Shown: positions 1,964-25,182 of the stretch, one piece after another
Layout of the letters: the number at the start of each line of letters is the position of its first letter
Numbering within the stretch: the first letter of the stretch is position 1
From: a virus
Reading direction: 5' to 3' (one strand)
IMG/VR virus record: IMGVR_UViG_3300005613_000097
Span: 1 to 48,923 of that record
DNA: 48,923 nucleotides
Position numbers and translations under genes: made by a program
The notes under the pieces: model-generated
Database searches by the model: none
What the model saw: the letters and a program-made list of their open reading frames with translations, nothing else
What the model was told of the DNA's origin: nothing

Positions 1964-2251
1964 ATGAGTGAGAAACAAAAACCGATTTACATCGGCAGCG
2001 GTGTAAAGCAAAACGACAATTGGTTGAAGTCAAGCTTCTGCCTAACTGACATCCCGAAGGAACACATGTTCGAGTACAACGGGAAGAAGTACATCAAGGT
2101 GAACATCAACATCAATGACGCACAGGACAAGTACGGCAAGGATGTGAGCATCACTGTAGACACATGGAAACCTGACCCCAGCAAGAAGGCTGCACCGAAG
2201 CCTGATCCAGTGGCAACGGTTGACATTGATGATGATGATCTGCCATTCTAA
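1964..2251 (+). CDS. Small SSB-like protein with acidic C-terminal tip
   Basis: The 95-residue protein ends in DIDDDDLPF, the acidic-tip signature by which single-stranded DNA-binding proteins recruit replication and repair partners. Before it lies a Pro/Lys-rich linker (about residues 70-83) and a compact N-terminal part with a strand-rich KYIKVNININD segment. A canonical OB fold cannot be confirmed by eye. Its place after an annealing protein and an exonuclease supports an SSB role. It is followed by an intrinsic terminator that closes the recombination operon. Confidence 0.65.
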   Translation: MSEKQKPIYIGSGVKQNDNWLKSSFCLTDIPKEHMFEYNGKKYIKVNININDAQDKYGKDVSITVDTWKPDPSKKAAPKPDPVATVDIDDDDLPF

Positions 2252-2299: not shown

Positions 2300-2301
2300 C
2301 T

Positions 2302-2428
2302 CCAACGTTTTCCGCTAAAGATAATGCGTTAGAAACTGCCGTCCTTTCGCCATGCACAAACAGCGCAGAACGAAGCTGAGACTGACTGACGTACGGTCGC
2401 ACGCATTAGATTTTAGCGGGTGTTGGCA
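2302..2428 (+). repeat. attC-like inverted-repeat site 1 (long form)
   Basis: A large imperfect palindrome. CCAAC (2302-2306), CCGCTAAA (2312-2319) and AATGCGT (about 2323-2329) face ACGCATT (about 2401-2407), TTTAGCGG (2412-2419) and GTTGG (2422-2426). The order of paired arms separated by internal loops, with a roughly 70-base central part, resembles a long integron attC site: R'' (YYYAAC) on the left and R' (GTTRRRY, here GTTGGCA) on the right. A plain terminator would not need the interrupted arms. It could instead be an unrelated stem-loop. Confidence 0.5.
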
Positions 2429-2449
2429 ACCGTAAATTTTAATTTAAAA

Positions 2450-2626
2450 ATGACAAGAATGAAAAATAGGAAAGACATAATAATCATTGACGACTGCGAT
2501 ACTCCAAGTAACTTTCATAAGCTTTTTCAAAGTCTTGATCGGAAGAGGAGAGTAAGACGTTTACTTCGGGTGTTTGTCCTGATAGTATTTGTCGTTTTAA
2601 TTGGTGGAATCCTGACACTGCTTTAG
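2450..2626 (+). CDS. Small single-pass membrane protein (uncertain)
   Basis: A 58-residue reading frame starts 27 bases inside the cassette 5' boundary, where cassette genes usually begin. It has an N-terminal basic/acidic cytosolic part, a strongly basic stretch (RKRRVRR) and a C-terminal hydrophobic segment of about 20 residues, which suggests a tail-anchored membrane protein. It overlaps a - strand frame at 2484-2912, so probably only one of the two is expressed. An ATG at 2420 in the same frame would start within the attC-like stem and is less likely. Confidence 0.35.
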   Translation: MTRMKNRKDIIIIDDCDTPSNFHKLFQSLDRKRRVRRLLRVFVLIVFVVLIGGILTLL

Positions 2627-2912
2627 GCGACATGGAATCTGCAAATGCGTCAAAGTTTGAATCAAGGTCAATTTTCGAGTTAATGACAGCCACATTCGCA
2701 CCTTTTATATTTCGGTCAATGTTGAACAGAATTACAAATTCACCCTTCACAAAACCGCCAGATGGTATTGTTTCCTTATTTGGAAAGTCGCGAACAAAAG
2801 ACTCAATAGATATACCATTTGTCGCAAGGAGATATTCAGCTTTCCTTATGTCTTTAATTATACCGCCTGAGCTTTCAGGATACAACGTGTCGATGAAGAT
2901 GGTGTCGGTCAT
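2484..2912 (-). CDS. Hypothetical protein in cassette 1
   Basis: This 142-residue frame on the opposite strand has the balanced composition of a soluble protein and ends in an acidic/aromatic helix. I do not recognise the family. The ATG at 2912 follows an AAAGA-like purine tract. A longer frame would need a TTG at 2933 inside the attC-like repeat. The protein is encoded against the usual cassette orientation, which occurs in some integron cassettes. It overlaps the small + frame at 2450-2626. Confidence 0.5.
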   Translation of the reverse strand: MTDTIFIDTLYPESSGGIIKDIRKAEYLLATNGISIESFVRDFPNKETIPSGGFVKGEFVILFNIDRNIKGANVAVINSKIDLDSNFDAFADSMSPKAVSGFHQLKRQILSGQTPEVNVLLSSSDQDFEKAYESYLEYRSRQ

Positions 2913-2924
2913 TTCTTTATTTAT

Positions 2925-2965
2925 GGTTGCCAACGGTTACTGCTAAACAACGGAATTAACGGGTA
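2925..2965 (+). repeat. attC-like left half-site 2
   Basis: GGTTGCCAAC followed by a GGTTACTGCTAAACAACGG-type core closely resembles the element at 13166 (ACAACGGGTACCGCTAAACAATG). No matching right arm is visible. Both, like the one at 4917, run into TTAACG 10-20 bases later. The repeated core also supplies in-frame TAA codons. Confidence 0.4.
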
Positions 2966-2986
2966 GATATCACAAAAACAAATAGG

Positions 2987-3289
2987 ATGATTATAGAAGA
3001 TTTATTGCAAAAAGTACTACACGACAGAAGGGTTAACGATTTAATCAAAGAAGACGGTAGATTATGGAATGCGGTGATTGAGTTCGCTGAGAAATACCAC
3101 GAACAACAAGTCAAATCTGTTGATTTAGCTGATGTTGGTGGTTCGTTGCTTAATGACAACACTTGCAACATCAAACACGATGATAGTGATGAGTTCTATG
3201 CCTGCGATGTGACAAGTTGCTGTGGTGTTGGGCCGATTGTACGTGAAAAGTATTGCCCTGAATGCGGTAAAAGGATTCTAAGGCAATGA
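2987..3289 (+). CDS. Hypothetical zinc-ribbon protein
   Basis: A 100-residue protein with no recognised family. The N-terminal two thirds are mostly helical and acidic. The C-terminus has four or more cysteines (CDVTSCCG, then CPECGKR) arranged as a zinc ribbon, which suggests nucleic-acid or protein binding. The gene lies between two attC-like elements and is followed at once by a complete one (3291-3357), so it may be a cassette gene. Unlike its neighbours, its cassette 5' boundary does not match its own R''. Confidence 0.6.
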   Translation: MIIEDLLQKVLHDRRVNDLIKEDGRLWNAVIEFAEKYHEQQVKSVDLADVGGSLLNDNTCNIKHDDSDEFYACDVTSCCGVGPIVREKYCPECGKRILRQ

Positions 3290-3290
3290 C

Positions 3291-3357
3291 CACCAACGGT
3301 TTGGCTATGTGCCGTTGTGAGGTACGAGCAATGGACATATAGCCGTTGTTGTGCGTA
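3291..3357 (+). repeat. attC-like inverted-repeat site 3
   Basis: CAACGG (3294-3299) pairs with CCGTTG (3343-3348), and CTAT followed by a GTGCC-like arm (3305-3313) pairs with GGACATATAG (3333-3342). The left arm has five extra unpaired bases and the loop is about 19 bases. The right edge, GTTGTGC (3348-3354), fits the R' form GTTRRRY with one deviation and begins the 10-base sequence that recurs inverted at 4037. Confidence 0.5.
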
Positions 3358-4086
3358 TGTACTGGATTATTAACGAAAAACTTAAATAGAATGAAAATAT
3401 TAATAGCCTGTGAGGAAAGCCAGGCAGTAACGAAAGAATTTAGAAAGTTAGGACACGAGGCTTTTTCTTGTGATATATTACCTTGTAGCGGTGGGCATCC
3501 TGAATGGCACTTACAGCAAGATGTAACCGAACTATTAAAACAGGAATGGGATTTGATTATAGCCTTCCCACCGTGTACATACCTAACTGTAACAGGCAAT
3601 AGATGGTTTAACATTGAAAGGTATGGCGAAAAAGCCGTGAAGCGATACGAAGACCGCAAAGAAGCGATTAAATTCTTTATGATGTTTGCAAATGCTAACT
3701 GTGAACATATTGTAATTGAAAACCCTGTTGGCGTAATGAGCAGCGAATGGCGGAAACCTGACCAAATTATAAACCCTTGGCAGTTTGGCGACCCATTTGA
3801 AAAGAAAACCTGCCTTTGGATTAAAGGACTTCCGAAATTAAAGCCTACGAATGAAGTAGAACCTGCACCCAGAAAAGAATTTAAGAGCGGTAAAACTATG
3901 CCTGCCTGGTATGCTGATGCTTGGAAACTACCAAAGGATGAAAGAGCGAAACTAAGAAGTAAGACCTTTCCAGGGATTGCACAGGCTATGGCGACCCAAT
4001 GGCATAACTTTCTTATGAAAACGGATGCTTAGGTATTACGCACAACGGTTAGTATAAAAAATCGTTTTAATGTTTTTTATACAGTG
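3349..4086 (+). mobile_element. Putative integron-type gene cassette 2 (cytosine methyltransferase)
   Basis: The clearest cassette. Its 5' end GTTGTGCGTA (3348-3357) is the exact reverse complement of TACGCACAAC (4037-4046), the left edge of the attC-like site that follows the gene. The expected crossover point lies between G and TT at each GTT (3348/3349 and 4086/4087). It carries one + strand gene starting 43 bases inside. A sampled 60-base stretch of the gene (3421-3480) is about 35 percent GC, against about 50 percent in a sample of the primase gene. Confidence 0.55.
3391..4032 (+). CDS. C5-cytosine DNA methyltransferase-like protein
   Basis: A 213-residue protein beginning MKILIACEESQAV. 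The N-terminal strand and helix (residues 2-30) fit the SAM-binding motif I region. AFPPC at residues 58-62 is the Pro-Cys catalytic motif IV of C5 methyltransferases. VIENPVG is a motif VI (ENV)-like segment carrying the Glu. It is shorter than bacterial enzymes (over 300 residues) and lacks an obvious long target-recognition domain, as many phage versions do. The ATG at 3391 is preferred over an in-frame upstream start at 3346, which lies in the attC-like repeat. Its likely role is DNA modification against host restriction. Confidence 0.75.
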   Translation: MKILIACEESQAVTKEFRKLGHEAFSCDILPCSGGHPEWHLQQDVTELLKQEWDLIIAFPPCTYLTVTGNRWFNIERYGEKAVKRYEDRKEAIKFFMMFANANCEHIVIENPVGVMSSEWRKPDQIINPWQFGDPFEKKTCLWIKGLPKLKPTNEVEPAPRKEFKSGKTMPAWYADAWKLPKDERAKLRSKTFPGIAQAMATQWHNFLMKTDA

Positions 4087-4094
4087 TTATGTAC
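4037..4094 (+). repeat. attC-like inverted-repeat site 4
   Basis: The left edge TACGCACAAC matches, inverted, the start of cassette 2. The right edge GTTATGTAC (4086-4094) matches, inverted, the end of cassette 3. Between them GTATAAAAAA (4052-4061) pairs with TTTTTTATAC (4073-4082). The core is clearly related to the site at 13539 (AACGGTT, AATCGTTT, AATG, ATACAG shared in order). It could also work as an AT-rich terminator. Confidence 0.55.
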
Positions 4095-4925
4095 TGTATA
4101 GCGACTTTAAAGTACGAACCTAAATAAAAAGAACTGAACTAAGTAATAATATTTTTGTGCGGTGGCAAATTGCTGAGGCACGAAGCAAAATAAGTAATAT
4201 ATGTTTAGCTACTATGGAAGTAAAAGTAAATTGATTAACTATTACCCAAAACCGACAAAAGGCTTGATAATAGAGCCATTTGCTGGGTCTGCAAGATATG
4301 CTTTAAAATATTGGGATAATGATGTAATAATAAATGAAAAATACAAAGTTGTATTTGATGTTTGGAAATGGCTGCAGATATGTAGCGAAAAAGATATTTT
4401 GAAATTACCAACACCTAAACCTAAAGAAGATATAAGAAATTACAATTTAAGCAAAGAAGAACTTAATTTTATGGGCTTCTTGATTAATAGGGGTAGCGTT
4501 TCTCCAAAAAATAAAGTTGGTAATTTTAGTGATGGATTGCCAAATACTTTAAAAAGAGTTGCATCTAATTTGCACAAGATAAAGCATTGGGATATTAGAT
4601 TGGGGTGTTATACTGATTTAGAAAATAAAGAAGCTACTTGGTTTATTGACCCACCTTATCAATTTGGCGGTGAACATTACAAAGAAAATAATATTGATTT
4701 TGATAAACTTTCCAAGTGGTGTAAAAGTAGAAATGGCGAGGTTATAGTTTGCGAAAATACAAAAGCTAATTGGATAGATTTAAAACCTTTAAAGAAAATA
4801 CAAGGGTCGAGAAATACAAACACTATTGAGGCAGTTTATTTAAAAGGGTGGGGAAAAAATATTATTACGACTGGTAAGCAAACAAGTATATTAGATGAAC
4901 TGAACTAAGCTATATTGTACATAAC
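4087..4925 (+). mobile_element. Putative integron-type gene cassette 3 (adenine methyltransferase)
   Basis: The 5' end GTTATGTAC (4086-4094) recurs as its exact reverse complement GTACATAAC at 4917-4925, directly after the gene. The gene lies on the + strand and is very AT-rich (about 28 percent GC in its first 60 bases), unlike the backbone. Cassettes 2 and 3 are head-to-tail and share the site at 4037-4094. The exact right limit is not resolved. Confidence 0.55.
4201..4908 (+). CDS. D12-class (Dam-like) N6-adenine DNA methyltransferase
   Basis: A 235-residue protein with the order of a D12-class adenine methyltransferase. YYGSKSKL at residues 4-11 is motif X, EPFAGSARYAL at 25-35 is the SAM-binding motif I, and DPPY at 150-153 is the catalytic motif IV. 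Length is slightly below the usual 260-280. It likely methylates adenine in a short site to protect phage DNA. Base composition is strikingly AT-rich compared with flanking phage genes, which supports recent acquisition. It is the only gene in cassette 3. Confidence 0.85.
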   Translation: MFSYYGSKSKLINYYPKPTKGLIIEPFAGSARYALKYWDNDVIINEKYKVVFDVWKWLQICSEKDILKLPTPKPKEDIRNYNLSKEELNFMGFLINRGSVSPKNKVGNFSDGLPNTLKRVASNLHKIKHWDIRLGCYTDLENKEATWFIDPPYQFGGEHYKENNIDFDKLSKWCKSRNGEVIVCENTKANWIDLKPLKKIQGSRNTNTIEAVYLKGWGKNIITTGKQTSILDELN

Positions 4926-4945
4926 TATTCGCTAAGATTAACGAC
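4917..4945 (+). repeat. attC-like left half-site 5
   Basis: GTACATAAC followed by TATTCGCTAAGATTAACG. The CGCTAA-type core and the TTAACG ending parallel the half-sites at 2925 and 13164. No right arm is evident before the next gene. Confidence 0.4.
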
Positions 4946-4956
4946 AAATTAGTCCT

Positions 4957-5178
4957 ATGCAAACAATTGACAAACAAGATATTGAGTTAATCAAAACTGA
5001 ATTCATGTTACGTTGGTGTGGTAAGGTTCAGGAGTTAACCAAGATACGTAGGTCAAAAATGTCTCAATCGGAAATGGCGTTCATATCTGGAAGAAGTTTG
5101 AAGACCATTCAAAGATTTGAGCGTTACAAGGTGTACGATCCTGAGTTGATGTTTATTTACAACAGATTACTGGTTTGA
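4957..5178 (+). CDS. Small helix-turn-helix DNA-binding protein
   Basis: The 73-residue protein contains a likely HTH in its C-terminal half: SQSEMAFISGRSLKTIQRFE, where a helix beginning SQSEMA, a tight turn at SGRS and a recognition helix KTIQRFE resemble Cro/CI-type or XRE repressors. The N-terminus is helical. It lies between the cassette cluster and the primase-helicase gene, so a regulatory role over replication genes is plausible but unproven. The 121 bases that follow (5179-5299) hold T-rich runs but no convincing stem-loop or promoter. Confidence 0.6.
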   Translation: MQTIDKQDIELIKTEFMLRWCGKVQELTKIRRSKMSQSEMAFISGRSLKTIQRFERYKVYDPELMFIYNRLLV

Positions 5179-5299: not shown

Positions 5300-7720
5300 A
5301 TGAATCGACACAAAGTGACTGTTTTTCGGTCAATAATCGACACAGACACCCCATTTCACAGGGATGTTATGGTGGTGCTAGACCGAATAAAGAATGGTTC
5401 GAGCAAGGACTTGGTAACCAAAATCCGAAAGGAGAAGGATAAGACCGAGCGCAATAACCTTAAGAAGAACCTGCCGTCCATCTGTTTCTCGGGTGAGTTT
5501 ACCAAGCGGAAGGATGATGCACTGGTACAACACAGCGGCCTGCTGTGTATCGACCTTGACGACTACGAGAGCGTTAAGAAGATGAACAAGGCGAAGGACG
5601 ACCTATCCAAGAGTAAGTACACATACGCTGTGTTCGTGTCTCCGTCTGGCAATGGACTCAAACTACTGGTCAGAGTACCTGCTGATGTTCAGAACCACAA
5701 GAACTACTTCAATAGCCTTGAGAAGCACGTCAACTCGCCTCACTTTGACACCACAAGCAAGAACGTGTCAAGGGTATGCTACGAGAGCTACGACCCGAGC
5801 ATATACATCAACGAGAACGCTGAGATATGGGATAAGATAGACGAGGAGGAGCATGCTGACATCGTGAAGCAGCACACCGAGGTGACCATACCGATCACGG
5901 ACGAGAACAAGATAGTTGACATCCTTGTGCGTTGGTGGTCTAAGAAGTATCCGATGAACGAGGGCAAGCGCAACGAGAACGCATACATACTTGCTGCAGC
6001 GTTCAACGACTTCGGGGTTCAGCGGTCTCTTGCCGAGTACGTGCTTAACCAGTACGCTGACAAGAGCTTCCCAAGCTCTGAGATAAAGATCACCATTGAC
6101 TCAGCATACTCGAAGACACAGAACTTTGGAACTAAGGTGTACGAGGACACCGACAAGATGAACATGATACGCTCGAAGATACGCAGGGGTGTGCCGCGTA
6201 AGGAGGTTCGCTCTGAGATAGTTGACGAGGGCATCGACCCAAAGACTGTAGAGGCAGTGCTGGGAAAGATAGAGGACGAGGCGGAGTCACAGAAGTTCTG
6301 GACGAAAACAGACCGAGGCGTGGTCAAGATCGTCCACTTCTTATTCAAGCTATTTCTGGAAGACAACGGTTTCTACAAGTACTGTCCAGAAGGAGGCAAC
6401 AACTACGTGTTCGTCCGAGTAACTAACAACCTGATAGACCACGCCAGTGAGAAGGAGATAAAGGACTTCATCCTCAACTACCTGATGAACCTTGACGACA
6501 TCTCCGTCTACAACTACTTCGCTGACAACACACGATTCTTCAAGGAGGAGTTCTTGTCCATGTTGGCAACGGTTGACATACACTTCATCGAGGACACCAA
6601 GGAGGAGGCATATCTATACTATCGCAATTGTGCCGTAAGGATTGACAGGGGTGGTGTAACTGAGATAGACTACATCGACCTTGGTGGTTATGTATGGAAC
6701 GAACACATCATCGACAGGAACTTTGTCAAGTGTGACTCTGACGAGTGTGACTACAAGCAGTTCATCCGCAACATCTGTGCTGACGATACGTCAAGGGTCA
6801 GGTCAATGGAGTCAACCATCGGATTCCTGCTGCATGGCTACAAGAACCACAGCTACTGTCCTGCTGTCGTGCTGAACGATGAGGTCATCACAGACAACCC
6901 AGAGGGAGGCACGGGCAAGGGTCTGTTCATGAACGCACTGAGCAAGATGAAGAAGCTCGTCACGATTGACGGTAAGTCGTTCACCTTTGAGAGTTCATTC
7001 GCATACCAGTTAGTAAGTGCTGATACTCAGGTACTTGTATTCGATGATGTACGCAAGCACTTTGACTTTGAGCGTCTGTTCAGCGTGGTAACAGAGGGAC
7101 TGACGCTTGAGAAGAAGAACAAGGACGCCATCAAGATTCCGTTCAGCAAGTCGCCCAAGATTGCCATCACAACCAACTACGCCATCAAGGGTAGCGGCAA
7201 CTCGTTTGAGAGACGCAAGTGGGAGCTTGAGCTGCACCAGTTCTACCGTAAGGACTTCACACCGTTCGATGAGTTCGGCAAGCTGATGTTCGGTGACTGG
7301 GACGAGGATGAGTGGTGTCAGTTTGACAACTACATGATCGGATGCCTGCAGGGCTTCTTGGAGACAGGGCTTGTTCAGAGTCAGTTTGTTAACCTTGAGA
7401 TACGCAAGCTGTCTGCTCAGACGTGCCATGAGTTCATCGAGTGGTGCGGTCTTATTGATGGGGCGCAGCCTAACCAGTCTCTTGTGCTTAATACCAAGCT
7501 CAACAAGCAGGCGCTGTACTATGAGTTCGTGGATGAGTTCCCAGACTTCGGGCCGAAGGCTAAGATGACCATAAGCAGGACAAAGTTCTACAGGTGGCTC
7601 ACGCACTTTGGAGAGTTCAAGTACGGCATGAAGCCACTGCATGGCAGAGACTCAAACGGAAGATGGATAGAGTTCGTCAAGAAAGAGATAGCTGAATCAA
7701 CAATAGAAATGGATTTTTAA
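5300..7720 (+). CDS. Primase-helicase fusion (BT4734-like primase plus SF3/D5-like helicase)
   Basis: The 806-residue protein starts with a BT4734/VirE_N-type primase region typical of Bacteroidota elements. CIDLDDY near residues 83-89 supplies the D-x-D metal site and SPSGNGLK near 114-121 the second catalytic motif of archaeo-eukaryotic-type primases. A linker follows, and a helicase domain holds Walker A GGTGKG near residue 536, Walker B VLVFDDV near 579-585, a TTNY sensor near 624 and a likely arginine finger in SFERRKWEL. It should prime and unwind phage DNA. Its start ATG follows GAAAA-type A-rich sequence. It is the main replication gene in the window. Confidence 0.88.
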   Translation: MNRHKVTVFRSIIDTDTPFHRDVMVVLDRIKNGSSKDLVTKIRKEKDKTERNNLKKNLPSICFSGEFTKRKDDALVQHSGLLCIDLDDYESVKKMNKAKDDLSKSKYTYAVFVSPSGNGLKLLVRVPADVQNHKNYFNSLEKHVNSPHFDTTSKNVSRVCYESYDPSIYINENAEIWDKIDEEEHADIVKQHTEVTIPITDENKIVDILVRWWSKKYPMNEGKRNENAYILAAAFNDFGVQRSLAEYVLNQYADKSFPSSEIKITIDSAYSKTQNFGTKVYEDTDKMNMIRSKIRRGVPRKEVRSEIVDEGIDPKTVEAVLGKIEDEAESQKFWTKTDRGVVKIVHFLFKLFLEDNGFYKYCPEGGNNYVFVRVTNNLIDHASEKEIKDFILNYLMNLDDISVYNYFADNTRFFKEEFLSMLATVDIHFIEDTKEEAYLYYRNCAVRIDRGGVTEIDYIDLGGYVWNEHIIDRNFVKCDSDECDYKQFIRNICADDTSRVRSMESTIGFLLHGYKNHSYCPAVVLNDEVITDNPEGGTGKGLFMNALSKMKKLVTIDGKSFTFESSFAYQLVSADTQVLVFDDVRKHFDFERLFSVVTEGLTLEKKNKDAIKIPFSKSPKIAITTNYAIKGSGNSFERRKWELELHQFYRKDFTPFDEFGKLMFGDWDEDEWCQFDNYMIGCLQGFLETGLVQSQFVNLEIRKLSAQTCHEFIEWCGLIDGAQPNQSLVLNTKLNKQALYYEFVDEFPDFGPKAKMTISRTKFYRWLTHFGEFKYGMKPLHGRDSNGRWIEFVKKEIAESTIEMDF

Positions 7721-7721
7721 C

Positions 7722-8369
7722 ATGAAGATACTTGAATTATTTGCAGGCAGCAGGTCGATAGGCAAGGCTGCTGAGGAGCTGGGACACGAGGTGTTCTCGA
7801 CAGATATACATCCATTCGAGGGTATTGACCTCGTGTTGGATGTGTTGGAAATAGAACCCAACGACATACCTTTTGTTCCTGATGTCATATGGGCGTCACC
7901 ACCATGCACGGGCTTCAGTGTGGCTGCCATAGGTCATCACTGGACTGGAGGTAAGGGAGCATACATTCCCAAAACAGACACGGCAAGGCTCGGTATAAAG
8001 CTTGTCGAGAAGACGTTTGAAATCATAAACTTCTACTGCGACATGAATAATTGTATGGAATGGTTCGTTGAGAACCCAAGAGGCGTACTTCGTAAGATGC
8101 CGATTATGGAAAGATATCAGAGGCATACGGTCACGTACTGCCAGTATGGTGACGAGCGAATGAAACCTACCGACATTTGGACGAATAGCGTTGAGTGGAC
8201 TCCAAAACCTATGTGTAAGAACGGAGCACCATGTCATGTTGCCGCACCGAGAGGAAGTCGTACAGGAACACAGGGGCTGAAAGGGAACTACGAGCGAAGT
8301 AAGATACCTCACGAGCTTTGCTTGGATGTGGTCAAGGCATCTGAAATCGGACACTTATTACCATTTTAA
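7722..8369 (+). CDS. C5-cytosine DNA methyltransferase
   Basis: A 215-residue enzyme beginning MKILELFAGSRSIGKA. LELFAGSRSIG (residues 4-14) is the F-x-G-x-G SAM motif I, ASPPCTGFS near 58-66 carries the catalytic Cys, and WFVENPRG near 108 is motif VI. The C-terminal half has the Cys/His-containing stretch common in phage versions. Base composition matches the phage backbone, unlike the two cassette methyltransferases. The gene starts just after the primase-helicase stop and the SNF2-like helicase follows at once, indicating one operon. Confidence 0.82.
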   Translation: MKILELFAGSRSIGKAAEELGHEVFSTDIHPFEGIDLVLDVLEIEPNDIPFVPDVIWASPPCTGFSVAAIGHHWTGGKGAYIPKTDTARLGIKLVEKTFEIINFYCDMNNCMEWFVENPRGVLRKMPIMERYQRHTVTYCQYGDERMKPTDIWTNSVEWTPKPMCKNGAPCHVAAPRGSRTGTQGLKGNYERSKIPHELCLDVVKASEIGHLLPF

Positions 8370-13163: not shown

Positions 13164-13205
13164 TTTTACAACGGGTACCGCTAAACAATGTTTTTTAACG
13201 AATAA
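13164..13205 (+). repeat. attC-like left half-site 6
   Basis: ACAACGGGTACCGCTAAACAATG is nearly the same as the core at 2931 (CAACGGTTACTGCTAAACAACG) and is likewise followed by TTAACG (13196-13201). No right arm is visible before the next gene. Confidence 0.4.
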
Positions 13206-13534: not shown

Positions 13535-13538
13535 ATGT

Positions 13539-13594
13539 TTGCCAACGGTTTACTAAAGAATCGTTTCAATGATTTTTAATACAGGTTGTAACAT
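13539..13594 (+). repeat. attC-like inverted-repeat site 7
   Basis: GTTTGCCAAC opens the site and GTTGTAAC (13585-13592) closes it. TACTAAAGAATC (13551-13562) pairs with GATTTTTAATA (13571-13581) with one mismatch and one bulge. The sequence is related along its length to the site at 4037, as expected for attC sites of one integron family. Confidence 0.45.
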
Positions 13595-15903: not shown

Positions 15904-15976
15904 TGTGTTCGCATTGATTGGTTTTTAGGCATTTCTTTCCGCATTCTACAGGTCTGGTCTCGCACCATTTCTTCAT
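15845..15976 (-). CDS. Small Cys-rich protein (uncertain)
   Basis: A 43-codon frame starts with ATGA overlapping the stop of the 3069-residue gene and runs into the amidase gene in another frame. It has four cysteines in its first 22 residues (MKKWCETRPVECGKKC). The stop/start overlap and placement in an otherwise empty 70-base gap favour a gene. The short length leaves real doubt. Confidence 0.3.
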   Translation of the reverse strand: MKKWCETRPVECGKKCLKTNQCEHNGKTDRKDNSTLLSNPRGA

Positions 15977-18900
15977 CTACGTTCCTTATACTTCCTTTCC
16001 TGATATTTTCTCACAGGCCTCTCTTTATATCGTGACTTCTCTTTCTTTTCCTTCTTCTCTTTCTCACCTTTAGGCCTTGCTGACTTTGGTAGACCAAGTG
16101 TGTCGTATATCACCTCGTCTTCAAAGCCCTCTGTTGTTCCTTCATAAACACTAAAGAATGGGTCTGTATTTGTTGATGCAAAAAAGCTGACAAGTTTGAT
16201 TACAATACTTGTGTAATCTTCATCTTTTATTGATTTAGCAACGTCATATACAAGTCTGTCTAATGGCCCTTGTATCCCTCTAGTAGCAGGTTTACCCTCA
16301 ATAACAGCTTCAGCAGCTCCAACCGCAGAACCGACCAATGGTATCATTTTCAATTGATTAACAAATATCATTGCCTTTAACATGTCGTAATATACCTCTT
16401 CTCTATCCTCGTCATCTCCTTTTATTAGCTTCATCATGTTTCCAGCAAGAACAAACATTACGTTTGCCACTCCAGCGTTCAAGTATAATGCTCTTACATC
16501 AGACTTATTAGGCATTTTCTTGCTTCTTAAATCTCTCGATATCTTTATTGATGACTGGTATACCTTATTCATCTGTAATAGAGCAACACTTGAGAACATG
16601 GTCAACATCCTTAACATTGGCTGCTTTCTTGCCATTACTTGAATTGGTGAAGATTCTGTTCCTCTTTTTGATTGCTGTGTTTCGTTATAGTCATTGAATA
16701 TCTTTACGGCTTGTTCGTGACTCATTCCGTTTGCTATATTCCTGTTGTACACGGCCATATATCCCATTACTCCGAGTATATCTCCCAATGTGGTTGCTCC
16801 TGCCGTGGCTACACTAAACCATCTTCTCAATTCACTTACTTGTTCCTCATCAATTTTTGATCCTGCCTCCAGCGAAAATACATCACCTTTCAACGCATCA
16901 ATAACCCTCTGATTAAATGTTGCTGATATGTCTCTTCCCTTTTTAATGCTTGAAAATATTGTGAGTGCCACCTTTGTCACGTCATACGCAAACCCTATAA
17001 GGTCAGGGCCGAGAACCCCAAGACTTTTTTTCTTTCCATCTTTAGATAATGAGTATTGCTCATACGCATTGATAAATGATGAAGCCTGCTTTGGAATCTG
17101 TATAAGCTTGAATCCAAGAACCATCCCGTAGAACCTGCTCATTAACTTATCAAAGAATGGTATTCTGTCTGTGACTGGATTTACCATACCATCTATTGTC
17201 ATATAGTACATCTTCTTTATTCCAGTCTGCTCAAGAAGTGCGTTAACGTGCGGAAACGCAAGTATCTTATTTATTGTGTTGACCGTTTCAGCATACGCCT
17301 TGTACTTTTCCATTTGCTGAAAGTGCCTTTTTATTTCTCCTTGAAATGTGTAATTTAAATCAATGCCACTTTTAGTATCTACACGTTGGCTTATTGCTGA
17401 TGGAGACATTTGACCAAATGCTTTAGCAAAACTATCTGGGCTATATTCCTCAGCTTTTTCTTTCACAAGAGATCTCGTGGGAAAGTAGTTCTCAACGAAA
17501 TCTAAGTTGATATCGTTAACCCTTACGTGAACGTCATTAACAGATTCGTAGTATTGACCACTTAGATAGTCAACTACATTATCTGCAAATGCAACAAGTT
17601 CAGGGCCTAAAAACTGCTCTATCTCAGTCATTACTTCACCCGTAAATCCCTGCCCTCTTAGCTTCTCTCTCTGCACATCATTCTTGCTTAGAGCATACAC
17701 CCTGAGAAGCTGACCCTTATTAAGTGTTATGCCGTTTATCTGCTTTAGTTTTGATATCTCCTCAATAAACTTAACTTGCTCTTTTACAAGTGTCGCAGCG
17801 TCAATGGTCTCGTTTATAGCCTTTATCTGATCCTTTATATCAGACTTGCTCATCCCAAGATACTTCATTTTATCTGCGACTACCTCAGCGATAAGCTTCT
17901 TCGCTTTAGCAAGTGTCTTGGCGTCTGTAGGGTTTTCGTCAACCATAGCTTTTATGGATTCAATCTCAGCATCTTCGCTTTGCTCAATCCCAGCCACGAA
18001 CATGCCTTTTCCTTTTAGCAGCTTCATAACCTGCTTGAAACCACCATCAATACCCTTTACCGCATTCGCAAGGTCGTCAAGCTTCTGAATCTGCTGCTGG
18101 TATCCCTTTAGGCTGTTCTCATCTGCGTCTTTAAGTGGATTCACGATGTTGTCAGTAAAGAATGTACCTCCCTTGTCGAGAACTGTTGACAGAGAAGTCA
18201 TATTTAAAACAACGTCTTTGACAAATTTTAATAGACCCTCATCCGAGTCATAGAATTTACTTATTATTTTTTTTAGTCCAGCGATAGTTCCATTCTTTTC
18301 AAACTCTTCCCTTATTGATTCTGCCGTTTTACCAAGTTGATTCTTTGTCTTAAGTATGCCGTTTATGGTAAACAGCTCTCTGAACCCTTTCTTAATCTGA
18401 GCATTAGACTCCTTTGACAGCTTAGCATATCTCTCTGACCTCTCAAGCCTTGCGTTCTTAAGGCGTACCGCTGATTCATTCTTCACGTCATTTACAGCCT
18501 CCTCAAGGGTCATAACGTCCTCAAGATCCATACTCATGATATCTCCGAACGTGTCAAACGCATATACCCTATCAAGCAGCGCCTGCTCTTGTTGGGTTAG
18601 CTTCTCTCCGTTTATCTCCTTCTGTACTATCTCATCAATACCATCAAGGTCTGACAGCTCCTGAGCAAGCTTCATCATGCTCTCGATGTCATTGTTGTAT
18701 GCGTACTTTAATATCTTAGCTGCCTCCTCGAAGAACATTTGACCCTGCGCCTCAACGCTACCAGCTTTTGCTACGAGCTTTCCAGTTCTCTTCTTGGTTG
18801 CATACTTCTTTGCCTTGTCAAGCATCCTCTTGACGGTAGCCTTCTTGATTTTCTCTCTTTGGGCCTCAACTATGTCAAGAACCTTTTGAACCATTTCTAC

Positions 18901-21900
18901 CTGATTATCAAAGTTTACCTTGTCGATAATAGCATTAGTCTTCTTCATCTGAGCCTCACTATACGTGTCTGATACTGGAAGTGACTGACCTATGAACCTT
19001 CTCATCTGACCCTTGAGTGTTGCAAGGTCTTTTGCGTTCTTCTTCAGTTCGGCTATCTTCATCTGCAACGCACGCTTTTGGGCGTCAGACACGGCTTCTT
19101 TTGACTTGATATTATCTACAAGTTCAGATATTCTTTCAAGCTGAGCCAAGACATTGTCTTGGTTGACATCGCCTACAGCCTTTATGATACGTCTTATATC
19201 CTGAGACATAGGCATCTCTTTGAGAGCGGCTTTCAACTCTTTCTGAGCTTCCTTAATGCTCTTGACACCCTCTCTCATTGCCTTAGCCTTGTTCTTGATG
19301 TTGTTAATCACATCCTGAACCTTCTTGTTAGACTTAGTTCCAATGGTCTTGTCAAACCCAACCAATATCGCTCCCTGCACAGCTGCGCTTTGCTTTTGGA
19401 ATACTGGATGTGCTTTTAGAAGCTCAATAGCCTTAGCCCTTACCTCTGACATTGTAGGCGCTGACGCAACCTCATACTTCGCTGGTTCTGGGAACTTCTT
19501 CAGTATGGCGTCATCAGACATATCAAACAGCGATGGATTGAGCTGTCTAAGCTCATTTGCCTTAGCCCTTTTTTCATCGGCTGTAAGTTTCTTTGCAGGA
19601 ATCTTCTTTCGCTTCCCTTTTGCAAACGTACTCAGCTTTTTCCTCACGTCCTTGAACATCTGAGTAGCCTCTCCTACACCACCTTTTACCCTATTGAACT
19701 CTGATGGCAGCTGCGTTTCGATGTCAATGTTGACAACCATTGCCTTGTTGATGTCGGCTACCTTGAATCCACGTTTTTTCAGAAGCTCTTTGATGGATGC
19801 GTCAGAAAAGTTCTCGGCACGTCCAAACTCAATTATCTTATTCATCGAGTTCTCAGGAACCGTCATCAGCTGTAGCTGCTCACCGAATGACTTGACCTCA
19901 GCACCAGCAAACACCTCATTCTCAGACATCATGTCAACCACAACGCCCTGCACAAACTCATCAAGGGTTATGTTTTGTAACTGATCAGGTGTAAGCTCAG
20001 ATATACCAGTTAGCTTACCTATGAACTCAAATAGTTCGTTCAGCCAGTTCTTGAAGTTCTTCTTCTGTGCCGCAGATGCGAATGACTCCCCCTTATCACC
20101 GATGGCTGTAGCCAGTGCCTCCTCTTTGATGTACGCCTCGATGTCAGCCTCAGACACGCCATCCTTACGCATCTTATCAATAATCTTTCCGTACTCCTTA
20201 CTGTTGATGACCTGCTGGTAGTATGGGCTATCTTTGGTCATAAGCTCCATACCCTTCTTGTAGGTATCCTTTCCAAGTTCCCTTGCTACATTAAGCCATA
20301 CGTGACCAAACTCATGTATAGGCGTGTTATAGTTTGGAAGGCTCGGATTAAGGTATAGTTTACCTTCATACACAGCACCGTACACCTTTTGATTGGCCGT
20401 TACAAGCTTCTTTGCCTGAGCGTTTGCTATGATAGCATCGAACTCATTTTGAGACAGTACCACATCAACGGTTGGGAATGCCTTTGACAGTCTTCCCAAG
20501 AATCTTTCGTGTTGGCCTTTTAGATACTCAACCACCTCATAAGCTGTGGTTGATGTACCCATTGCAGAACTCATAGCAGCACTTCTCATTTCTCCAGCGC
20601 TGTATTGGGTTGTTTCGGCAAAAGGGGTCTCAGCTTTTGTAAGAATTTCTTTTATGCCAGCCTTATTATTTATCTTTAGCGCACTCTTTAGAAGAGAAAT
20701 TGTTTGAGATTTTACCTCACCGTTTTTGAGTTTTTTTACGTTTCCTTTTAATAACTCCTTAATAATCTCTTTCTTAGAATCTACTGACGCGCTATCTTTT
20801 TTTGCTTCCTTGATTTGATTGTAAATACTCTCTTCGACTTTTGTAGCGCCCTCTTTTACTTTGCCAGTCTTTTTCTTGTCAATCCCAGATACCCTTTCGT
20901 TGATTTTCTGTCTGTATTCTGGAATGACATTGAAGAATGACGCTGTTTCCTCCATTATGCCAACTGCCTTTCCTCTGATATAAACTGAATAGTTTCTGTG
21001 TGAAGGAATTCCCTCTTGTTGCTGTTGTTCTACAGACATCCTTGCCGAGTCTATGATGGCATTGTATTTAGCCTCATACTCTTTGTCCGTTATCTTTCCA
21101 TCAGCAAGCTCCTTGTCGATTGCGAGCTTTCTTTCTCTAACGGGTACGCCATTCTCATCCTGAACCTCAACCACCATTGTGAGAGCGCCATCTGGTAGTT
21201 CTTTTGCAAACTGCTCGGCATTTTCCTCTCTCAGCTTTTCAATCGTTACGCCTAACTCTTTAAGCTTAACATGCAAATCAATCCTGCTACCCTTAGCCCC
21301 TGTTGGTATTATCAGCCTTGTTACGGCAGCTCTAACATCAACGCCTTCTTTTTTCATGGTACCATCCTTTTGAATGGACTCTGTATTTGCAAGGCTTTCA
21401 AACGCCTCCATTAGTGTTTTGGCGTTTTTAAAATGCTTGTGTGCCCTTTTTATTTTTTTCTCATCAGAACCTAAAACCCTTTTTTTGATTAACTGGAATA
21501 TCTCATCTTTTCTGTTTTCAGGTATGGCATTGTCCAAAGCTTCGGCCATGGCGATGTTTGAGTCAACACCACCGTCTCCCATATTGTAGACAACCGACAG
21601 GTCGCCATTCATTGCGCCAATTATGATTTTATTGGCTGCGGTCTTGTCTATTGATGCCCATGCGGCTCTACCGAATATCTTCTCCATCAATGGGAAGAAG
21701 TTTCCGCCCATCTTTACGTATGGGTTTGTTTCTTGGTCGTATGGCTTGGACGGATCCATTAGCTCTATCTTCAGCTTATCCGCCATTAGAAGGTTGAGCT
21801 TTTTACCAACTATATCCTTCAGTCTGAACCTCTTTATGCCAGTTCTTTTTACGGGTTCTGCCCCTTCATCGAGGTTTACTGGTATTGGTTCAGCAGCCTC

Positions 21901-24900
21901 TACGCTTTCAACCGTTTCAATATTCTCAGGCTGTACCTCATTCATCAGGTCTTCAGCCTCTTTCTCAAGCGTCTCCTTGCGTTGCTTGTCGGTCATGTCG
22001 GTCTCAAGCTGGAACTTCACGTCATCGTCAAGTCCGAGCGCATCGGCAAGGTCGTCAGCCTCCTGCTTTACTTGCGCCCTTTCTTCTGGAGTTTGGTCTT
22101 CGGTGTCAATCTCTTCGGTAACTTCCCGAACGTCTCCTTCTCCCACCGCTTCGCTGTCTCTGGCAGGTTCTTGTACATCCACCGTCTCTGTGCTTGGCTC
22201 TTGAATGGCATCTCTTTTATCTTGAAGTGTATAATCTACAGCGTTGAATATAGATTCTAAAGCACTGTTATCTATTTCAAAATTGTATTCTGATTTAAGG
22301 AATTTACGTATAGCATCTATAAAGCTTTTAAATATATTTGATTTAATGCCAGATGACCCATCGCTTATGTATGATAATTCTTGCCTAAAATTTCTATTGC
22401 CAAATGCTTCAGATACGAATTCGTCTAAATTGCTAAATGCATAATCATACCTTGAAACTAAGTCGTTGTCTTGTTTTACAAGGTCGAATATCCTCTGTAT
22501 TTCATCTACAAAAACCTGATCCTTTTCATTCCTAGCAGTTTCATTTATCTTTGTAAATACAAGTGAATGTAATCCTTCATGCAGGATTGTTTCAGTGTTT
22601 AATAATTCTTTTTCAAAAACAAGTACATCTCCGTTTTCTGAAATTGTAGCTCCATAACCACCTAGATCACCCGTGAGTTCATTTGAAATATTGTAGTTGA
22701 ACCCATCTTGGTAATATACATTTTTGCCTTTTAAAAAAGGTAAAAGTGCGCTAATGAGTTTTTTGTCTAACTCAGTAACTTCAGAGTCTTGATTTACAAC
22801 CTCTTCAAATGAAATTTTCCTTGTTTTTGCATCCTTTAAAAATCTTTCCCCCTCTCTGTATGCCTCTTCACTAAATACAAGATTATCAATATCCACAACA
22901 GGCGCAACCTCCTCAGCAGGAGCAAACTTCTCCATCTCAGCGTTGTACTCATCCTCAGTGAGTGTAACGGTACCGTTGCCATCATTACGGTTCACAGTGG
23001 CAAACGCCTCGGCTGTAGGTGACGTTACCTGTGTAGGCGCTTCGTATGTTGGGGCAACCTCTTCTGTAACAACTTCTTCGGTAGGCCCTTTAGCCATCAC
23101 CTCCTCGATCTGAGAATTTATCTCTTGTAACTTTTTCTTACCAGCCTCGGTTGTGTTTCCCTGAAGTTTTTTCTTTTCCTTCTCAAGAGAAACCAACTCA
23201 CTTACCCTTCCATCGTCTGTGATACCAGCTTCAACAAGGTCTCTCTTGATGATGGCATCTTCTCTTACATCTTTCTTCTTTTGTTCTGCGGCTTTCTTTA
23301 AGGCGTCATTTCCCTTGATATCGATTTTAGCAGCAGCAATCTGCTCGTCAGTAGCGTTGTCAAGGAATGACTGGAAGTCTTCAAATGACAACTTTTTACC
23401 ATCAACATCTATGGATTCCCTTTCGGATATCGCAAGCATCCCTCCTCTTCCAACACCAAACATCAACATGCTGCCAAGTAATGTTGATACGGCTGTTTCA
23501 GCAGCCTCTCCCGATTCTACAAAATCACCAACGGCCTCAAATAGTGTTGTCCCAGAACCCTTCGTCCCAATTACAATCCCCTTCTCTTGCAATTTTCTAT
23601 TGTACTCTTCCAGCACTCCTTGAGGTACTTCCGTTCCAACCTCTGTTAAGCTTGATTTTGTGATATCCCAAAGTTCCTTTCCTACCCTTACTCTATTACT
23701 TTTGATTTCATTTTCTACTGCCTTTTTTATTATCTTGTTCTTAGCGAATCCGACAGCCTGTCCTATACCAACTTTTTCTAATGCTCCAGCCATTACGCCC
23801 AAAGTCATTGATGTCAACTCGTCTTCTGAATCTTCATAGATAATCTCCTCTGGAGTCTTGCCGTCTCTCTTTGCCTTTGCCTCTACCGCATCAATATACA
23901 TGGGAGTCCCCATTTCATATATAGCAGAACCTCCCTCTGTAAAAACACTCCTCATTATGGATCCAATGAATTGAATAGAGTTTGATACGGCTCCAGACAA
24001 TACTTTTGACCCCTCTAAATCTTTTATAGATTCCCACGTTGGTACAACGTCTTTTAACTCTTTCTCATACTCTTTTATTCTTTGGTAGTTTCTTGTCTGA
24101 GAAGCTGCCTCCACTTCTCTTAATTTTTTTCTAAACGTATCAGAGTCTGCTCTACCTCCCGTTAGCGCTGGAGCGAGAATAGATATAAAATCGGATTGCT
24201 TTTCAGCCAATTGAGCGTTATATAGTGCATTTTGCAACGGAAGCATTTTCGTCTTCACGTACTCATTATGAAGAGCATTACCTATGCCTTCCCAGAATCC
24301 AAGTTGGTCTATCTTTTCTTTAGCGTAAAGCTCTCTATCTATGGATAGTTCTTTTGACAGTTCTTCAACTTGACGCTCAGACTCTTCAATGGCTAAATTC
24401 TGAAGCCTTTCGGATTCCTTGACAAATTGAGGGTCTTTGTTTATCTCATCAGCAATCCTCGCGTCCATTATTGAACTGAACTTTGAAAGCTCAACATTAG
24501 CCTCGCCTTCAGTCATCCCTCCTGAATTTACAAGATCAGTAAGCTCATTGAACTTGTCTTGATACTGTGATTGATATTTTGAACTCACCCTTGAAACAGC
24601 CTCTTTTACCTCTTGACTTTCGTTTAGTGCTTTTTGAAAGTCTATTGATATGTTTGTGTTTATCCTTTTGACTTCAGACAGCTCTTTCTTCAGCATCTTG
24701 TCATCGAATATCTGATCTGGCGTCTTGATATCCTTCATGGTCATCTCACCACTCAGAATCTTTTTCCCATAATCCTCAAAGTCAGGGACTTTTGCTTTAT
24801 ATACTTCTTCTGTTGGGAATATGCCTACAGGTTCTTCAGATACTTCTTCTATCGCCTCTTCTTCTACTGGGAATATACCAACTGGCTCCTCCTCCTCCTC

Positions 24901-25182
24901 AACAGGTTCCTCAACCACATCGGCAGATACACCATCTTGTAAAGGGGATTCGGTAGGACTTTTTTTTTCAGCCGTCTCCATCATCTCAGGGGTGAGTTGT
25001 TCTTGTTGTATTTTGAAGTTTGAAATATCTCCAACGTCATACCCTTCGTTTTCAAAAAAGCCGTGGAGTTCAGTTCTTTTTTTATCATCTTTCAAAGCTG
25101 AAATAAAGTTTTGCTCATCTCCAAGGTCGTACCCTTCGTTTACAAAAAACGAGTATAATTCTAATGCTTTAGACTTGTCCAT
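15973..25182 (-). CDS. Giant polyvalent virion protein with two zincin metallopeptidase motifs
   Basis: At 3069 residues this is the largest gene. The N-terminus has two tandem copies of a FF-x-NEGYD-x-GD motif (about residues 11-24 and 41-54), then an acidic, low-complexity Glu/Val/Pro stretch. HEGLH at 868-872 and HEFGH at 1623-1627 are two separate HExxH zincin motifs. The middle is charged coiled coil. The last 500 residues are less charged, with hydrophobic helices that could enter a membrane. This resembles phage polyvalent proteins carried in the capsid and injected with DNA. No D-x-D-x-D RNA polymerase motif was found. The next protein upstream ends 2 bases before its ATG. Confidence 0.7.
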   Translation of the reverse strand: MDKSKALELYSFFVNEGYDLGDEQNFISALKDDKKRTELHGFFENEGYDVGDISNFKIQQEQLTPEMMETAEKKSPTESPLQDGVSADVVEEPVEEEEEPVGIFPVEEEAIEEVSEEPVGIFPTEEVYKAKVPDFEDYGKKILSGEMTMKDIKTPDQIFDDKMLKKELSEVKRINTNISIDFQKALNESQEVKEAVSRVSSKYQSQYQDKFNELTDLVNSGGMTEGEANVELSKFSSIMDARIADEINKDPQFVKESERLQNLAIEESERQVEELSKELSIDRELYAKEKIDQLGFWEGIGNALHNEYVKTKMLPLQNALYNAQLAEKQSDFISILAPALTGGRADSDTFRKKLREVEAASQTRNYQRIKEYEKELKDVVPTWESIKDLEGSKVLSGAVSNSIQFIGSIMRSVFTEGGSAIYEMGTPMYIDAVEAKAKRDGKTPEEIIYEDSEDELTSMTLGVMAGALEKVGIGQAVGFAKNKIIKKAVENEIKSNRVRVGKELWDITKSSLTEVGTEVPQGVLEEYNRKLQEKGIVIGTKGSGTTLFEAVGDFVESGEAAETAVSTLLGSMLMFGVGRGGMLAISERESIDVDGKKLSFEDFQSFLDNATDEQIAAAKIDIKGNDALKKAAEQKKKDVREDAIIKRDLVEAGITDDGRVSELVSLEKEKKKLQGNTTEAGKKKLQEINSQIEEVMAKGPTEEVVTEEVAPTYEAPTQVTSPTAEAFATVNRNDGNGTVTLTEDEYNAEMEKFAPAEEVAPVVDIDNLVFSEEAYREGERFLKDAKTRKISFEEVVNQDSEVTELDKKLISALLPFLKGKNVYYQDGFNYNISNELTGDLGGYGATISENGDVLVFEKELLNTETILHEGLHSLVFTKINETARNEKDQVFVDEIQRIFDLVKQDNDLVSRYDYAFSNLDEFVSEAFGNRNFRQELSYISDGSSGIKSNIFKSFIDAIRKFLKSEYNFEIDNSALESIFNAVDYTLQDKRDAIQEPSTETVDVQEPARDSEAVGEGDVREVTEEIDTEDQTPEERAQVKQEADDLADALGLDDDVKFQLETDMTDKQRKETLEKEAEDLMNEVQPENIETVESVEAAEPIPVNLDEGAEPVKRTGIKRFRLKDIVGKKLNLLMADKLKIELMDPSKPYDQETNPYVKMGGNFFPLMEKIFGRAAWASIDKTAANKIIIGAMNGDLSVVYNMGDGGVDSNIAMAEALDNAIPENRKDEIFQLIKKRVLGSDEKKIKRAHKHFKNAKTLMEAFESLANTESIQKDGTMKKEGVDVRAAVTRLIIPTGAKGSRIDLHVKLKELGVTIEKLREENAEQFAKELPDGALTMVVEVQDENGVPVRERKLAIDKELADGKITDKEYEAKYNAIIDSARMSVEQQQQEGIPSHRNYSVYIRGKAVGIMEETASFFNVIPEYRQKINERVSGIDKKKTGKVKEGATKVEESIYNQIKEAKKDSASVDSKKEIIKELLKGNVKKLKNGEVKSQTISLLKSALKINNKAGIKEILTKAETPFAETTQYSAGEMRSAAMSSAMGTSTTAYEVVEYLKGQHERFLGRLSKAFPTVDVVLSQNEFDAIIANAQAKKLVTANQKVYGAVYEGKLYLNPSLPNYNTPIHEFGHVWLNVARELGKDTYKKGMELMTKDSPYYQQVINSKEYGKIIDKMRKDGVSEADIEAYIKEEALATAIGDKGESFASAAQKKNFKNWLNELFEFIGKLTGISELTPDQLQNITLDEFVQGVVVDMMSENEVFAGAEVKSFGEQLQLMTVPENSMNKIIEFGRAENFSDASIKELLKKRGFKVADINKAMVVNIDIETQLPSEFNRVKGGVGEATQMFKDVRKKLSTFAKGKRKKIPAKKLTADEKRAKANELRQLNPSLFDMSDDAILKKFPEPAKYEVASAPTMSEVRAKAIELLKAHPVFQKQSAAVQGAILVGFDKTIGTKSNKKVQDVINNIKNKAKAMREGVKSIKEAQKELKAALKEMPMSQDIRRIIKAVGDVNQDNVLAQLERISELVDNIKSKEAVSDAQKRALQMKIAELKKNAKDLATLKGQMRRFIGQSLPVSDTYSEAQMKKTNAIIDKVNFDNQVEMVQKVLDIVEAQREKIKKATVKRMLDKAKKYATKKRTGKLVAKAGSVEAQGQMFFEEAAKILKYAYNNDIESMMKLAQELSDLDGIDEIVQKEINGEKLTQQEQALLDRVYAFDTFGDIMSMDLEDVMTLEEAVNDVKNESAVRLKNARLERSERYAKLSKESNAQIKKGFRELFTINGILKTKNQLGKTAESIREEFEKNGTIAGLKKIISKFYDSDEGLLKFVKDVVLNMTSLSTVLDKGGTFFTDNIVNPLKDADENSLKGYQQQIQKLDDLANAVKGIDGGFKQVMKLLKGKGMFVAGIEQSEDAEIESIKAMVDENPTDAKTLAKAKKLIAEVVADKMKYLGMSKSDIKDQIKAINETIDAATLVKEQVKFIEEISKLKQINGITLNKGQLLRVYALSKNDVQREKLRGQGFTGEVMTEIEQFLGPELVAFADNVVDYLSGQYYESVNDVHVRVNDINLDFVENYFPTRSLVKEKAEEYSPDSFAKAFGQMSPSAISQRVDTKSGIDLNYTFQGEIKRHFQQMEKYKAYAETVNTINKILAFPHVNALLEQTGIKKMYYMTIDGMVNPVTDRIPFFDKLMSRFYGMVLGFKLIQIPKQASSFINAYEQYSLSKDGKKKSLGVLGPDLIGFAYDVTKVALTIFSSIKKGRDISATFNQRVIDALKGDVFSLEAGSKIDEEQVSELRRWFSVATAGATTLGDILGVMGYMAVYNRNIANGMSHEQAVKIFNDYNETQQSKRGTESSPIQVMARKQPMLRMLTMFSSVALLQMNKVYQSSIKISRDLRSKKMPNKSDVRALYLNAGVANVMFVLAGNMMKLIKGDDEDREEVYYDMLKAMIFVNQLKMIPLVGSAVGAAEAVIEGKPATRGIQGPLDRLVYDVAKSIKDEDYTSIVIKLVSFFASTNTDPFFSVYEGTTEGFEDEVIYDTLGLPKSARPKGEKEKKEKKEKSRYKERPVRKYQERKYKERR

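Follow-up and report, generated by a model that had tools for sequence, protein, structure and literature searches.

Integron-type cassettes in a phage replication region

The subject of this analysis is an insert at positions 2302-4926 of IMG/VR virus record IMGVR_UViG_3300005613_000097, in which genes are arranged as cassettes between attC-like sites. The whole 48.9 kb record, 48,923 nucleotides (nt), was analysed and is called the window. The insert lies in the replication region, where the gene order is Sak annealing protein, DUF3799 exonuclease, single-strand DNA binding protein (SSB), insert, primase/helicase, methyltransferase and helicase; the virion genes are on the opposite strand. 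The Sak-like annealing protein and the exonuclease are encoded immediately 5' of the insert. A reading made earlier from the letters of the window (the sequence-only reading) had described cassettes between phage replication genes with no integrase in view, which agrees with the SSB and primase/helicase flanks and with a search that gave 0 matches to Pfam Phage_integrase (PF00589) in the record, itself possibly incomplete. As argued below, the insert is probably a decayed, integrase-less cassette cluster of integron type in the replication region of a podophage, drawn from a pool served by phage-borne integrons. Its features and flanks are as follows, where R1 is a covariance model of our own and R' and R'' are the boxes at the start and end of a cassette.

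1964-2251, plus strand: SSB-like gene, left conserved flank (PHROG 378 single-strand DNA binding protein, weak; synteny)
2302-2431, plus strand: attC-like site A, with R'' box CCAAC, paired arms CCGCTAAA/TTTAGCGG and AATGCGT/ACGCATT, and R' box GTTGGCAACC (direct reading, DNA fold)
2422-2934, minus strand: cassette 1, bounded by GTTGGCAACC and GGTTGCCAAC, an exact 10-nt pair
2484-2912, minus strand: gene of cassette 1, 142 aa
2925-2960, plus strand: half-site with R'' box and left arm only, lacking the right arm (no R1 match)
2987-3289, plus strand: gene for 100 aa; its cassette is degenerate, having lost the R' box and the hairpin upstream
3287-3356, plus strand: attC-like site C (R1 32.5 bits, E 1e-5; outside the training set)
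3348-4046, plus strand: MT1 DNA methyltransferase cassette (gene 3391-4032), bounded by GTTGTGCGTA and TACGCACAAC (PHROG 757, 5e-74)
4036-4094, plus strand: attC-like site D (R1 70.7 bits; training member)
4086-4925, plus strand: Dam-like methyltransferase cassette (gene 4201-4908), bounded by GTTATGTAC and GTACATAAC (PHROG 56, 2e-12; MethyltransfD12 below cut-off)
4917-4945, plus strand: half-site, attI-like or secondary-site-like, ATAAC followed by TATTCGCTAAGATTAACG, lacking the right arm (direct reading)
4957-5178, plus strand: 73-aa open reading frame, possibly Xre-like helix-turn-helix (weak Pfam PF20432)
5300-7720, plus strand: primase/helicase, right conserved flank (PHROG 28855/18375; synteny in relatives)
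13536-13593, plus strand: solitary attC-like site of the family of site D (R1 45.3 bits; training member)

Cassette boundaries can be read from three exact reverse-complement pairs: GTTGGCAACC at 2422 with GGTTGCCAAC at 2925, GTTGTGCGTA at 3348 with TACGCACAAC at 4037, and GTTATGTAC at 4086 with GTACATAAC at 4917. Each of the three units opens with a GTT box, and the exact reverse complement of that box follows the unit. Three pairs of GTT-starting 9-mers spaced 200-1200 nt are thus present in 2300-4950, where 0.28 are expected and 0 of 300 dinucleotide shuffles reach three. The sequence-only reading had placed these pairs correctly. Its description of three such units holds; the further unit with gene 2987-3289 has no matching R' box at its start. 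It had also singled out site 4037-4094, and rightly: the left and right boxes of this site are unrelated, the left one corresponding to the start of the preceding cassette and the right one to the end of the following cassette. R''/R' complementarity in the window spans the gene and does not lie within the site, as in linear cassettes.

Two R1 sites (3287-3356 and 4036-4094) lie 680 nt apart, so by our own model the window holds the two or more nearby attC sites of a cluster of attC sites lacking an integrase (CALIN). It falls short of a complete integron, made up of integrase, attI and attC, since it has no integrase and 4917 is only loosely attI-like. The two methyltransferase cassettes probably serve in anti-restriction; the 142-aa product of cassette 1 has no Pfam or PHROG match. 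Degenerate left halves of the form AACGG.TAC.GCTAAACAA occur at 13166-13200 and 2925-2960, each before a small gene and then an attC, which suggests a common decayed cassette type.

The attC-like site family

R1 was built from 59 sites and is not the IntegronFinder model. Window sites 4036-4094 and 13536-13593 are in its training set, and 3287-3356 is independent of it. In the family alignment 95% of cells are paired, versus 73% in shuffled and 31-52% in slid controls, and double changes number 197 versus 58. The sequence-only reading had named four sites for a covariance-model search and for folding, and the outcome is mixed on both counts. R1 finds 4036-4094, 3287-3356 and 13536-13593, but 2302-2428 reaches only 9.1 bits; the latter forms a long paired hairpin, but single sites, folded as DNA, have energies near those of shuffled controls (z -1.7 to +0.5). 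Because fold energies alone are unremarkable, weight is placed here on the cassette rule, model R1 and comparisons.

The family extends well beyond the window. The pattern AACGGTTN{4,14}TCGTTTTAATG occurs in at least 119 stretches of viral contigs and at least 117 of bacterial genomes, and among the matches listed a hairpin is formed by 106 of 122 in viral contigs versus 46 of 117 in genomes. A chance origin of such matches can be rejected for viral contigs on this hairpin count; it stands for many genome matches, 71 of 117 being without a hairpin. Across viral sites, a reverse complement of the R'' 9-mer is found upstream in 32 of 80 cases (control 1.3), and one of the R' box downstream in 34 of 75 (control 2.4). 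Many viral cassettes measure 158-310 nt, with one small open reading frame each. The extra stem base is always found in the same arm (11:0). At viral cassette starts, for instance in loci L204, L353 and L360, a leader of about 70 nt after the R' box (such as GTTATATTTAGTATCAAAAATTTTATAC) is often common despite differing upstream cassettes; it is perhaps a promoter carried by each cassette. A generic attC motif (RYYYAAC...GTTRRRY plus L stem) was dropped as not selective, and an Rfam search gave no match.

Recurrence and mobility of the MT1 cassette

Homologues of MT1 are found in at least 10 other viral contigs, at 88-97% DNA identity. Throughout these loci (L433-L443) the conserved block includes TACGCACAAC at its right; similarity ends there in nearly all of them, with different sequence beyond. 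The right boundary, at the end of GCACAAC (the R'' box), is the same in ten contigs. What follows is alike in L436-L438 and, as a second group, in L439, L440 and L443, and L441 has a related but different hairpin. To the left, homology extends to the edge of the GTTGTGCG box in most contigs, and four MT1 contigs have a hairpin common to all four at the left end but differing R'' boxes. In silico, MT1 is therefore a mobile cassette.

Segments common to viral loci end in the same manner: an R'' or R' edge coincides with the right end in 29 of 31 cases and with the left end in 40 of 50. Breakpoints at the boxes in related contigs were what the sequence-only reading had predicted, and both these ends and the change of MT1 flanks conform to it. 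When related pairs were compared for indels of a single cassette, one clean event was found (L360/L374), with breakpoints within homologous attC sites. Common hairpins blur the ends of shared segments, which therefore did not by themselves show the neighbour with which a hairpin travels; the position of attI, the extra stem base and the polarity of the genes were used instead.

A compact integrase and attI-like sites in other viral contigs

A match to the IntI profile is present in 15 of 50 attC-bearing viral records, and in 14 of these the protein is a compact tyrosine recombinase of a single family, about 267 aa long and usually encoded near the array. The best family for this integrase is NF040815 (XerA/'integron integrase'), at 176 bits against a cut-off of 220, whereas TIGR02249 (IntI) falls below cut-off and matches in two pieces. 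It aligns with IntI4 (2a3v) at 11-178 and 260-308 only, with about 34 residues between these segments instead of 82, and the IntI-specific insertion of about 48 residues between the catalytic boxes is absent. Residues R134, K159, H217, R220, H243 and Y252 are invariant in the compact-integrase alignment (A2), and we take them to be its tyrosine recombinase catalytic residues. XerA, which resolves chromosome dimers at dif, is the best match in structure as well as in family (PDB 4a8e, 163 bits by profile); unlike XerA, the viral integrase genes adjoin attC arrays and an attI-like site.

The association can also be approached from the other side, with 80 viral loci retrieved by integrase homology alone. 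R1 sites are present in 54 of them; of these 172 sites, 170 precede the integrase and share its strand. An attI-like junction is seen in 25 of 46 loci, where the last cassette ends in ...AAC, TATNNTATATA follows, and the integrase starts 37-74 nt further; half-site 4917 of the window is only loosely like these junctions. In other phages, then, the attC family is linked in silico to the compact integrase and an attI-like site. Among the integrase/attC viral records, 13 of 31 have a T4-type portal, 12 of 50 have a terminase that scores above its cut-off, and several exceed 150 kb; many integrase-bearing records are therefore large T4-like phages. Records of isolated phages contain only distant integrases (best 40% identity).

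Bacterial counterparts and gene polarity

A related integrase is encoded in 123 of 299 sampled Flavobacteriales genomes (41%), often at contig ends, where the sequence frequently stops no more than a few hundred bases from the 3' end of the gene. In several of these genomes the integrase and the R1 sites are on opposite strands, with the sites past the 3' end of the integrase gene and adjoining a palindrome that ends in a GTT box. This agrees with the expectation of the sequence-only reading that the attC family would be found near an integron-type integrase in Bacteroidota. At loci such as L546, L547, L553, L555 and L560, the gene for an XerA/IntI-like integrase of 280-400 aa leads directly into a palindrome with a GTT box at its end, and cassettes come next. 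The Flavobacteriales loci are possibly under-annotated Bacteroidota integrons. TIGR02249 has matches in all 39 of 39 bacterial genomes, many of them Xer-type; one exceeds the cut-off (L335, G028:C64:4339-4917, 279.8 bits), in a Bacteroidetes metagenome-assembled genome that also has R1 sites.

Viral and bacterial cassettes differ in gene polarity relative to R1, with 167 plus to 3 minus in viral contigs and 8 to 15 in bacteria (Fisher p 4e-14, inflated by related contigs). They also differ in length, the medians being 254-368 nt for viral and 685-858 nt for bacterial cassettes. In the window, viral polarity is seen in the MT1 and Dam cassettes, and the opposite one in cassette 1. No bacterial copy of the window cassettes was seen, though no search was aimed at one.

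The window phage and its relatives

By primase and terminase, the closest named relatives are Elemovirus (Flavobacterium) and phages of Cellulophaga, Tenacibaculum and Maribacter, and the window phage is a Flavobacteriia-type podophage. The 'crAss-like' label given to it by the sequence-only reading is unsupported, because NCBI taxonomy places Elemovirus directly under Caudoviricetes. Relatives have the SAK-EXO-SSB-PRIM-HEL synteny in common, and the gap between SSB and primase, 3048 nt here, is 36-289 nt (median 211) in the 35 relatives with a detectable SSB. R1 found an attC above threshold in 0 of 81 primase-relative loci (best E 0.16). The insert is therefore particular to the window's lineage among the relatives searched. 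Wider pre-primase gaps in relatives L004 and L006 were considered as cassette carriers and rejected, there being no attC in them. The 73-aa open reading frame at 4957-5178 has no tblastn match in the relatives searched.

Relation to known cassette clusters

Integrase-less attC clusters in phages have been published (Qi et al. 2023, PMC9892861), so the proposal of the sequence-only reading that such a cluster would be new does not stand, and the window alone is a further example of them. That 2023 survey reports 21 phages with gene cassettes among 10,705 genomes, by general attC models (PMC9892861). It describes Polaribacter phage P12002L, a virulent flavobacterial phage with an integrase-less attC cluster and DNA methyltransferase cargo (PMC9892861). 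The P12002L CALIN is like the window in having no integrase, a methyltransferase cargo and a near-identical attC stretch, window 4035-4079 (45 nt, site D) being 93.5% identical to a stretch in that phage; it differs in phage lineage and in insertion place. One of two tested P12002L sites (attC2) recombined with attI1 under IntI1 (PMC9892861), and attC2 is not equated here with the 93.5% stretch.

Chromosomal integrons have in common with the present system the R'/R'' rule, imperfect hairpins with asymmetric spacers and one-gene cassettes and, in related viral contigs, an integrase adjoining an attI-like site. The differences are that an integrase is absent from the window and the IntI-specific insertion from the viral integrase, and that viral polarity is opposite to that of most bacterial cassettes observed here. 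What is new here is the occurrence of the site-D attC family in arrays beside a compact tyrosine recombinase in large, often T4-like, viral contigs. The accessible part of Qi et al. 2023 describes no phage integrase family tied to these sites (PMC9892861), and no phage integrons of a class that combines a compact integrase with reversed gene polarity came to light in the open-access literature searched.

Origin of the cassettes

A route for the cassettes can be proposed. A compact IntI/XerA-like integrase adjoining an attI-like site would capture and excise cassettes at folded attC. The window phage may have received its cassettes through attC x attC or attC x secondary-site recombination, with either the host or another phage supplying the integrase in the cell; the most likely entry point would be a secondary site in the SSB-primase interval. 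Later decay could have left the half-sites 2925 and 4917 and removed the hairpin of the 2987-3289 unit. The compact integrase presumably recombines these sites, and it or a host relative may have placed the cassettes in the window phage. More broadly, we lean toward the view that Bacteroidota phages, large and often T4-like, carry a distinct integron class that feeds unrelated phages such as the window podophage. This class would combine a compact integrase without the IntI domain, an upstream attI, and small cassettes running toward the integrase, opposite to most bacterial arrays. That phage-borne integrons serve the cassette pool is suggested by the linkage in other contigs.

A serious rival for how the cassettes reached the window phage, and a possible one, is the gain of a ready-made block from another phage through homologous or illegitimate recombination. 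The phage's own Sak, for example, could have carried this out, and no integrase would have acted on the genome. The Sak-like annealing protein and exonuclease just 5' of the insert fit such a transfer, as do cluster ends that are not clean complete sites. Qi et al. propose off-target homologous or illegitimate recombination for the entry of phage clusters (PMC9892861), and the L360/L374 breakpoints within homologous attC are also explained by homology-driven exchange. However, random recombination would not be expected to place shared-segment ends at R''/R' edges so often, nor to give an identical MT1 right boundary in ten contigs.

The capture of cassettes by a host integron integrase, from a bacterial chromosomal integron into the phage genome, is rather doubtful. 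Its strength lies in the frequency of the related integrase in Flavobacteriales, several of these genomes having R1-type attC nearby. Against this, bacterial cassettes mostly have the opposite polarity (8:15) and are longer, the methyltransferase cassettes of the window are of the viral type, and no bacterial copy of them was seen, though none was specifically sought. The sequence-only reading had combined integron-type cassettes with uptake by a host enzyme; the former part is retained, but the host enzyme is not required, given viral contigs with their own integrase and attI-like site.

It is very improbable that assembly joined a phage contig to a cassette-bearing one. The contig is metagenomic and the insert is in none of the relatives searched, but both flanks are conserved phage genes in the correct order, the contig has a further attC of this family at a distance of 9 kb, and the MT1 cassette recurs in other viral contigs. 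Chance inverted repeats or terminators, with which the near-control fold energies of single sites would agree, are refuted by the 0 of 300 shuffles, the strong covariation and the recurrence of the cassette rule in dozens of further contigs.

Several points weigh against a cluster drawn from phage-borne integrons. R1 was built from pattern matches and its E-values are rough, and the contigs are metagenomic, so individual chimeras are possible. The window sites include half-sites, site A (2302-2428) is unmatched by R1, and the gene of cassette 1 is in the opposite orientation. The compact integrase was found in 0 of 16 searched records with MT1 relatives, many of which are fragments. This integrase would have to recombine folded attC without the IntI-specific insertion of about 48 residues, and it was class 1 IntI1 that served in the one published recombination test of a site from a related phage (PMC9892861).

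Phage gene cassettes are known but rare in the literature, and the site-D family alone has at least 119 stretches in viral contigs. If the proposed system is real, phages own a device to capture and swap accessory genes such as methyltransferases. This would help explain mosaic phage genomes, provide a testable route for the spread of anti-restriction genes, and suggest that phages draw on a common pool of exchangeable genes. Since 41% of the Flavobacteriales genomes sampled encode a related integrase, Bacteroidota integrons may escape IntI-based tools.

Other features of the record

Two further features of the window can be noted. A 3069-aa minus-strand protein with no PHROG match is encoded at 15973-25182, adjoining an amidase gene. 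A second methyltransferase, of the same PHROG family as MT1, lies at 7722-8369 between primase and helicase, and relatives L031, L033, L040, L060 and L071 also have a methyltransferase at that place.

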